This document shows positions 31,302 through 32,216 of a stretch of DNA of 64,000 nt, one piece after another; position 1 is the stretch's first letter, and every line of letters begins with the position of its first letter. The notes under the pieces are model-generated. The model ran no database searches and was not told the DNA's origin. It saw only the letters and a list, made by a program, of their open reading frames with translations. Location: assembly GCF_023516555.1 (NCBI RefSeq), contig NZ_JAMGBD010000001.1:1622501-1686500 (forward strand), in the 5' to 3' direction. Origin of the DNA: Sphingomonas alba. GTDB lineage: Bacteria; Pseudomonadota; Alphaproteobacteria; Sphingomonadales; Sphingomonadaceae. The position numbers and the translations under genes were made by a program.

Positions 31302-32072
31302 TCAGAGCGCCAGCAGCCGCTCCGCCGTCATTTCCCGCACCTCGGCAATCGTCGCATCCAGCGACTCCGACACCAGGTAGCGCGGCTGGAAGGCATCATG
31401 TTTGTACGGCGTATGCACCGCCCGCTCGACCGAGAAGGGCAGCCGCTCCACCTCCCCGCTCTCCAGACTGAAATGCGCCTCGCCGAAGCTGGAGGCGAGC
31501 CCTGCACCGAGGATCTTGAGCTCGCCGCGCTCCGTCGCCAGCCCGAACTCGACGCTGTGCCAGTAAATGCGCGCGACCTTCTCGCCTTGCCCGGCGGCAA
31601 TCGCCGTCAGCCCGAGCCGGCCCATATGCTCTGCCATCTCCGCAAAATCGTGATGCGCCAGCATCGGGATATGGCCGAACATGTCGTGGAAGCAGTCCGG
31701 CGCCTCAAGGTAATCGAGCTGTGCCCGCGTGCGGATGAAATTGCCGACCGGAAAGACCCGTTCCGACAGCATGGCGAAGAAGGCCTCGTCCGGCACCAGC
31801 CCGGGCACCGCCACCACCCGCCAGCCGGTCCGCGGCGTCAGGATCGCGTTCAGCCCTTCGACGTCCGGTACCCCCGGATGCGACAGGCGCAGCAAATCGA
31901 TCCCGTCGAGGAACGGCGAAACCACCCGCGATCCCAGCAGCTCCACCTGCCGCGCGAACAGCAGGTCCCAGACCGCATGGTCCTCGGGCGTAAAGCTCTC
32001 CCAGCACTGCGGGACGACAAAGTCCTGCCACCGGCGGGCCTCGTCATCCCTGGTAATCACATCCTGAAGCAT
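31302..32072 (-). CDS. phhA: Phenylalanine-4-hydroxylase
   Basis: Monomeric bacterial aromatic amino acid hydroxylase that makes tyrosine from phenylalanine with Fe(II), O2 and tetrahydropterin. It has 256 residues. Iron ligands are H129 and H134 (CFHDMFGHIPML) and E175 (YWHSVEFGL). The start MLQDVITRDDE was preferred over an upstream TTG because AAGGA lies 8 bp before it. The pterin-recycling dehydratase phhB is on the same strand 2.2 kb upstream and hpd is nearby. Expression is probably controlled by the leader peptide and terminator just upstream (32097-32216). Confidence 0.96.
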   Translation of the reverse strand: MLQDVITRDDEARRWQDFVVPQCWESFTPEDHAVWDLLFARQVELLGSRVVSPFLDGIDLLRLSHPGVPDVEGLNAILTPRTGWRVVAVPGLVPDEAFFAMLSERVFPVGNFIRTRAQLDYLEAPDCFHDMFGHIPMLAHHDFAEMAEHMGRLGLTAIAAGQGEKVARIYWHSVEFGLATERGELKILGAGLASSFGEAHFSLESGEVERLPFSVERAVHTPYKHDAFQPRYLVSESLDATIAEVREMTAERLLAL

Positions 32073-32096
32073 TTCGTCGTCCTTCAATCGGGCAAT

Positions 32097-32127
32097 AAAA
32101 AACCCGCCGAGCGGAGGCCGGGCGGGT
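32097..32127 (-). terminator. Intrinsic terminator in the phhA leader (attenuator)
   Basis: On the minus strand, ACCCGCC (32127-32121) pairs with GGCGGGT (32108-32102), followed by six T residues. It lies between the Tyr-rich leader ORF and phhA, 25 bp upstream of the phhA ATG, so it sits in the transcribed leader. The segment CCGACCTCG directly before it (32136-32128) can pair with CGAGGTTGG inside the leader ORF, giving a candidate competing structure. Confidence 0.85.
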
Positions 32128-32156
32128 CGAGGTCGGTCGTCAGAACTGAACGCGCG

Positions 32157-32216
32157 TCAGCTGCTCCCAACCTCGTCGGGATAATAATAAGGAGCGCTGG
32201 TCGTGCGGCGGTTCAT
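32157..32216 (-). CDS. Tyr-Tyr-Tyr leader peptide of phhA
   Basis: A 19-codon ORF, MNRRTTSAPYYYPDEVGSS, with a ribosome-binding site (AGGG) about 8 bp before its ATG. Three consecutive TAT codons (32181-32189) lie in the loop of a short hairpin, GCTCC (32195-32191) with GGAGC (32167-32163). An alternative 9-bp pairing, including one G-U, joins CGAGGTTGG (32175-32167) to CCGACCTCG (32136-32128). An intrinsic terminator and then phhA follow. The layout is that of ribosome-mediated attenuation as in trp and phe leaders. Stalling when charged tRNA-Tyr is scarce would favour the alternative pairing. Function is inferred from layout. Confidence 0.78.
   Translation of the reverse strand: MNRRTTSAPYYYPDEVGSS

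Follow-up and report, generated by a model that had tools for sequence, protein, structure and literature searches.

A candidate tyrosine-codon transcription attenuator upstream of phhA in Sphingomonas alba and related sphingomonads

The window analyzed here is a stretch of 64,000 nucleotides from Sphingomonas alba (RefSeq assembly GCF_023516555.1, contig NZ_JAMGBD010000001.1, forward-strand positions 1,622,501 to 1,686,500), and all coordinates below are counted from its first letter. Its minus strand carries phhA, the product of which matches the profile of biopterin-dependent aromatic amino acid hydroxylases (PF00351 Biopterin_H, E 1.1e-42, profile search) and has phenylalanine-4-hydroxylases as its closest solved chains; phhB and hpd lie close to phhA within the window. 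The region directly upstream of phhA contains the following features, listed in the direction of transcription:

32254-32226, minus strand: predicted promoter with -35 element TTGAAC (32254-32249), a 17-nt spacer and -10 element CATAGA (32231-32226), a layout common to many relatives
32216-32157, minus strand: leader peptide ORF of 19 codons, MNRRTTSAPYYYPDEVGSS followed by a stop (from the ORF list and its translation)
32189-32181, minus strand: run of three TAT (Tyr) codons, taken to be the sensor (from the sequence)
32175-32167, minus strand: putative anti-terminator strand 2, CGAGGTTGG, beginning 14 nt past the first nucleotide of the first Tyr codon (from fold and covariation)
32136-32128, minus strand: putative anti-terminator strand 3, CCGACCTCG, flush with the terminator (from fold and covariation)
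32127-32097, minus strand: intrinsic terminator with a 7-bp stem of ACCCGCC (32127-32121) and GGCGGGT (32108-32102) and six T (32102-32097)
32072-31302, minus strand: phhA, phenylalanine-4-hydroxylase of 256 aa with its ATG at 32072, the proposed regulated gene (from PF00351 and solved relatives)

Most of this layout had been described in a first-pass annotation of the window as a candidate tyrosine attenuator, and its landmarks largely stand. The ORF and its TAT-TAT-TAT run are exact, the 9-bp pairing of strand 2 (CGAGGTTGG) with strand 3 (CCGACCTCG) is likewise exact and present in the predicted fold (-59.1 kcal/mol, z -2.21), and the terminator directly abuts strand 3, with the phhA ATG 24 nt past its last T. 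The element matched no Rfam family at gathering score, the best sub-threshold matches being far below theirs (Trp_leader RF00513, for instance, reached 14.5 of 41 bits).

The occurrence of the element among relatives was assessed with a finder that asks for a leader ORF in which one or more Tyr codons lie close to the stop, and then for a terminator. It covered 141 loci and found 101, from which L155 was dropped as a false leader, leaving 100 kept loci with 71 unique leaders. An intrinsic terminator between leader ORF and phhA is thus present in the window and at all 100 kept loci, and like the Tyr codons it is a criterion of the finder and so not an independent finding among the 71 unique leaders. 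Two loci marked by an earlier, cruder scan (L081 and L148) were also judged false. The count within the genus is independent of these criteria, the loci having been picked by PhhA: this protein was found in 65/71 genomes at 69 loci, and a Tyr leader with a terminator stands at 66/69 of these, in 64/65 PhhA-bearing genomes. Leaderless are L079 and L084, both in G007, and L083, one of two phhA copies in G010, the other of which (L068) does carry the leader. Relatives that bear a name (L002-L024) are mostly labelled Sphingomonas or Sphingomicrobium.

Leader and terminator extend to two neighbouring genera, g49 (2/2 sampled genomes; L143 and L144) and g58 (4/4 sampled PhhA-bearing genomes; L146, L147, L151 and L154). 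Further afield in the family, the upstream regions of 48 of the 260 genomes with PhhA were examined (the 30 best loci together with those of TyrA-less genomes), and none of the 16 phhA loci from TyrA-bearing genera had a Tyr leader. The comparison with other alphaproteobacterial families used 59 phhA loci (left of 70 PhhA matches from beyond the family once 5 near kin and 6 fragments were removed). A rule that recovered 83/101 of the leaders gave a single match there, L232, which we judged spurious, and none of the 42 distant non-sphingomonad loci scanned, out of 43, gave a match. In a tree of 87 PhhA rows, built without the genus loci L109-L138 for which only upstream DNA was fetched, the leader label requires three changes, and 37/39 leaderless rows fall into one supported group (100/99). 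A covariance model made for the window's clade, run with strict filters and E up to 0.01, matched in 59/71 genus genomes and once in the window's own genome, before phhA; five matches lay away from phhA, namely two Thr/Ile-rich leaders and three apparent plain terminators.

Tyr makes up 10.7% of the residues of the 71 unique leaders, with YYY in 37/71, YY or YxY in 67/71 and a single Tyr in 2/71. The final Tyr stands 8 codons before the stop in 53/71, and the residue is encoded by TAT 164 times and by TAC 25 times. Much of the remaining peptide is variable, including its N-terminal part, and its length ranges from 14 to 40 residues; the codons that make strand 2 vary less than the rest. Such an ORF with repeated Tyr codons is what the leader of a trp-type attenuator would be expected to look like. 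The leader stop reads TGAC in 43/71 unique leaders and is often followed by GCGCG, a motif (32156-32151 in the window, and its counterparts in relatives) to which we could assign neither a pairing partner nor a role.

Judged by the predicted promoter, transcription would start at about 32219, some 3 nt before the leader AUG, and upstream of the terminator, so that the leader mRNA would be leaderless or nearly so. Many relatives show a similar layout (TTGnnn-17-nATAnn) ending 6-10 nt before the leader ATG, and the two-element motif was found by a crude rule in 43/71 unique leaders; a generic promoter scan returned no promoter. The GAGGG that had been annotated as ribosome-binding site of the leader is doubtful, because the predicted start is downstream of it and the site therefore probably outside the transcript.

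Strand 2, which directly follows the Tyr codons, pairs across the leaders with a strand 3 located ahead of or within the first terminator arm, and covariation shows this 2:3 pairing to be conserved. Across the 71 leaders, strand 2 pairs with its own strand 3 at -20.4 kcal/mol versus -17.0 kcal/mol for swapped partners (z -10.3, 0/10,000; a first version of this test had given 0/20,000), and 27 representatives below 80% similarity gave z -6.0 (0/10,000), with a negative control at z -0.8. The covariation involves above all the stretch upstream of the terminator arm (z -8.5) and is weak with the arm alone (z -2.6, 49/10,000). Taken separately, the window's clade of 23 leaders (z -4.0, 0/10,000) and clade C (z -5.0) both show it, and it is weak in clades B and D alone (z -1.8 and -1.7), three rows of the test being shared by clades C and D. 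Compensatory exchanges within the window's clade affect 2/9 helix pairs: pair 1 is C-G or G-C in 13 and 7 leaders, and pair 6 is T-A or C-G in 13 and 8. These pairs were counted by script because the MAFFT alignments put strand 3 one column off between subgroups; the anchor of the script set L014 in the wrong register among the 23 rows, and L094 paired poorly (7/9). The first-pass annotation had pointed to a sphingomonad comparison for a conserved Tyr-run ORF with covarying stems, and in that comparison the ORF, the Tyr codons and the 2:3 pairing prove to be the conserved parts.

This does not extend to the 5-bp hairpin GCTCC/GGAGC that had been proposed around the Tyr codons. It can be drawn in the window and is not conserved, given that strand 1 does not covary with strand 2 (z -0.2 for the 71 leaders, 0.1 for the 27 representatives), so that a 1:2 protector hairpin is not supported; covariation of strand 1 with the stop region is weak (z -2.5, 55/10,000). 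Protector hairpins of this kind are not treated here as obligatory for trp-type attenuators.

The spacing of the element is tightly kept, with the stop codon 25-35 nt before the terminator arm at 99/100 kept loci (15 nt in L106) and the strand 2 helix starting 11-20 nt past the first Tyr codon in 63/71 unique leaders. How far anti-terminator and terminator overlap differs between clades. The longest unbroken 2:3 helix shares 1-10 nt with the terminator arm in 42/71 unique leaders, so that the two structures would compete; it ends 0-3 nt short of the arm in 26/71, the window included, and further off in 3. Overlaps of 6-7 nt are found in 12/16 leaders of clade B, of 5-10 nt in 8/10 leaders of clade D and mostly of 1-4 nt in clade C. 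For L143 and L144 of clade D the longest-helix rule picks another helix, and the stalled fold takes 5/7 arm bases. That the alternative stem abuts the terminator without overlapping it, which had been noted as a weak point of the proposal, is borne out for the window's clade as a whole, where in 23/23 leaders 1-3 nt separate the end of the helix from the CCC arm of the terminator.

The leaders were also folded with a ribosome placed on them. A ribosome with the first Tyr codon in its A site left a hairpin of -18.6 to -37.2 kcal/mol to form before the second terminator arm, and with the ribosome at the stop the same RNA folded to only -0.3 to -10.2 kcal/mol. Stalling at the first Tyr sequestered at least 3 arm bases in 40/71 leaders and fewer than 3 in 31/71, with none at all in L001 and 21/23 leaders of the window's clade (the exceptions being L006 and L094); at least 3 arm bases were sequestered in 19/71 leaders even with the ribosome at the stop. 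Equilibrium folding was uninformative as a test of switching: the terminator, which is strong and stable on its own, nearly always forms, its probability falling below 0.5 in 7/71 leaders with the first Tyr stalled and in 1/71 with the ribosome at the stop, and any switch must therefore be kinetic. Two further pairings were considered for the window's clade and set aside. In the window, the terminator loop offers strand 2 a second partner (GAGGTTGGG with CCCGGCCTC), but this was spotted by visual inspection alone and does not hold throughout the clade. An outer helix looping out the terminator arm is likewise confined to some members of the clade, and a ribosome on the first Tyr would partly cover it.

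We consider it very likely that the element is a transcription attenuator of the trp type, in which a translating ribosome senses charged tRNA-Tyr and so governs phhA. Transcription would start at the promoter directly upstream and yield a leaderless or nearly leaderless transcript with the Tyr codons in its first ORF. When Tyr-tRNA is plentiful, the ribosome would reach the stop codon and cover strand 2, leaving strand 3 unpaired, whereupon the terminator would form and transcription would end before phhA. If Tyr-tRNA runs short, the ribosome would stall at the Tyr codons and leave strand 2 free to pair with strand 3 before the second terminator arm is made, with read-through into phhA as the presumed outcome. 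For the flush helix of the window's clade, the two structures may exclude each other by competition for the lowest base pairs, or the terminator may be crowded by the helix together with the stalled ribosome.

The tyrosine supply of these bacteria is compatible with such a switch. TyrA (PF02153) was over the cut-off in 4/71 genus genomes in a profile search with 14/14 controls positive, which gave no match in the window's genome and weak sub-cut-off matches in 8 more genomes; three leader-bearing genomes of the genus have kept it (G004, G070 and G010, with G070 70% and G010 86% complete). Across the family, TyrA was over the cut-off in 264/298 genomes (13/14 controls positive in that run). The remaining 34, 13 of which were identified by subtraction from the list, comprise 13 with a leader before phhA, 19 with leaderless phhA and 2 in which no PhhA was found. 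A strict link between leader and TyrA loss is thus broken by the 19, which belong to other genera (g15, g25, g56, g59, g64, g69, g82 and g84). Prephenate dehydratase (PF00800) and chorismate mutase (PF01817) were over the cut-off in 14/71 and 44/71 genus genomes, respectively, with no match for either in the window's genome (G000). Because chorismate mutase, prephenate dehydratase and TyrA are all without match there, the window's species is probably a phenylalanine auxotroph that would obtain tyrosine solely via PhhA.

A switch that turns phhA on under starvation fits because PhhA makes tyrosine from phenylalanine and no TyrA was found in the genome. Gene order in two relatives points the same way: G003 has chorismate mutase, aroA, prephenate dehydratase, aroC and aroB followed by phhA with its leader, and in G007 a leaderless phhA closes a similar aromatic cluster that also includes DAHP synthase and aroE (in G007, aroB and aroC were identified by reading, and the prephenate dehydratase match contains an in-frame stop). 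Together with the absence of TyrA, this makes PhhA look anabolic in these bacteria and strengthens the earlier suggestion that it serves as a tyrosine source, and the nearby phhB and hpd in the window would also fit a catabolic role. Biosynthetic phenylalanine hydroxylases have been described in the TyrA-less Dyella and Legionella, and beside a TyrA in Echinicola (PMC7311316).

The alternatives to a tyrosine attenuator differ in how much of this pattern they explain. An ordinary terminator preceded by a chance short ORF, with no tyrosine regulation, could draw on the strength and stability of the terminator alone, but we regard it as extremely improbable and strongly disfavour it, given Tyr runs that are conserved and strands that covary over many species, and scans that gave one spurious match at 59 loci of other alphaproteobacterial families and none at 42 distant loci. 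It is also quite unlikely, if less so, that the leader acts chiefly in trans or post-transcriptionally as a small RNA or leader peptide, in the way reported for rnTrpL and peTrpL of Sinorhizobium meliloti, with a terminator that just makes the small RNA. The element would indeed release a short leaderless RNA like rnTrpL (PMC7298713), and it has several weak matches to Rfam small RNAs, all sub-gathering. Yet the conserved parts are those that an attenuator needs (Tyr codons, the 2:3 strands and the terminator), whereas the N-terminal part and the length of the peptide vary, and the single match of the covariance model in the window's genome stands before phhA itself.

A third possibility concerns the window's clade, where a Tyr attenuator by descent may have left the flush 2:3 helix as a relic or as a pause or processing hairpin, with the terminator constitutive or otherwise controlled. 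The predicted fold contains both the helix and the terminator, and the modelled stall at the first Tyr leaves the arm bases free in nearly the whole clade; however, selection still acts there on the helix and the Tyr codons, as the clade's own covariation indicates, and the spacing is close to that of the overlapping forms, so we think this unlikely, though somewhat less so than action in trans. Compared with these, we would entertain more readily, as a tentative proposal, an elaboration of the attenuator reading: that in a lineage without TyrA, and in the window's branch apparently also without chorismate mutase and prephenate dehydratase, tyrosine comes only via PhhA and phhA is under the first tyrosine-specific ribosome-mediated attenuator, with the flush helix and a closely packed stalled ribosome in the window's clade keeping the base of the terminator from closing although no bases are shared.

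Well-known attenuators respond to Trp, His, Phe, Thr or the branched-chain amino acids. The proposed phhA attenuator shares with trpL of E. coli and trpLE(G) of Sinorhizobium meliloti the consecutive codons of the regulated amino acid, the anti-terminator and terminator alternatives and a terminator before the structural gene; the S. meliloti trp leader RNA also starts at the leader ATG (PMC7298713), much as predicted for the phhA leader. It differs from these systems in the use of Tyr instead of Trp, in serving a single hydroxylase gene, in the lack of a detectable conserved 1:2 protector hairpin and, for the window's clade, in an anti-terminator that is merely flush with the terminator. The pheL-pheA and pheST attenuators of E. 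coli also sense an aromatic amino acid via charged tRNA and a leader (PMC11802643) but respond to Phe and control chorismate mutase-prephenate dehydratase or Phe-tRNA synthetase. The aroR leader of Corynebacterium glutamicum (Phe-Tyr-Phe) has a Tyr codon before an aromatic-pathway gene and is the sole Tyr-containing leader that we found in print in the open-access literature searched; it responds to Phe limitation, tyrosine availability being without effect in the account of the same review (PMC11802643). The cysS leader uORFC-8-2 of Rhodobacterales is, like the element described here, a predicted alphaproteobacterial attenuator with tandem codons that was found by comparison, but it has Cys codons before a tRNA synthetase gene in another order of bacteria (PMC8632094). 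Control of phhA itself is described for PhhR/TyrR on phhAB of Pseudomonas and other gammaproteobacteria, there by a DNA-binding regulator in a catabolic setting (PMC1173090 and PMC5343134), and a listing of putative tyrA attenuators dates from 2005 (PMC1173090). The open-access literature searched, which did not cover a 2004 survey of proteobacterial attenuators, yielded no described Tyr attenuator on phhA, no Tyr-specific attenuator and none on a hydroxylase. The class of attenuator is thus known, and the amino acid (Tyr) and the gene (phhA) look new.

The leader would mark a branch of bacterial PhhA as biosynthetic, while phhA is best known as a catabolic gene in Pseudomonas, and a Tyr leader could serve as a simple sequence signature for biosynthetic PhhA. 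The overlapping, partly overlapping and abutting anti-terminators of related species moreover form a natural series bearing on how much overlap antitermination needs. Separately from phhA, the two Thr/Ile-rich leader ORFs picked up by the covariance model are followed by terminators and stand directly before aspartokinase-homoserine dehydrogenase genes, in G003 (L247, 9114-9209, reverse strand) and in G007 (L248, 13342-13439, forward strand); they have the layout of the phhA leader, used for another amino acid.
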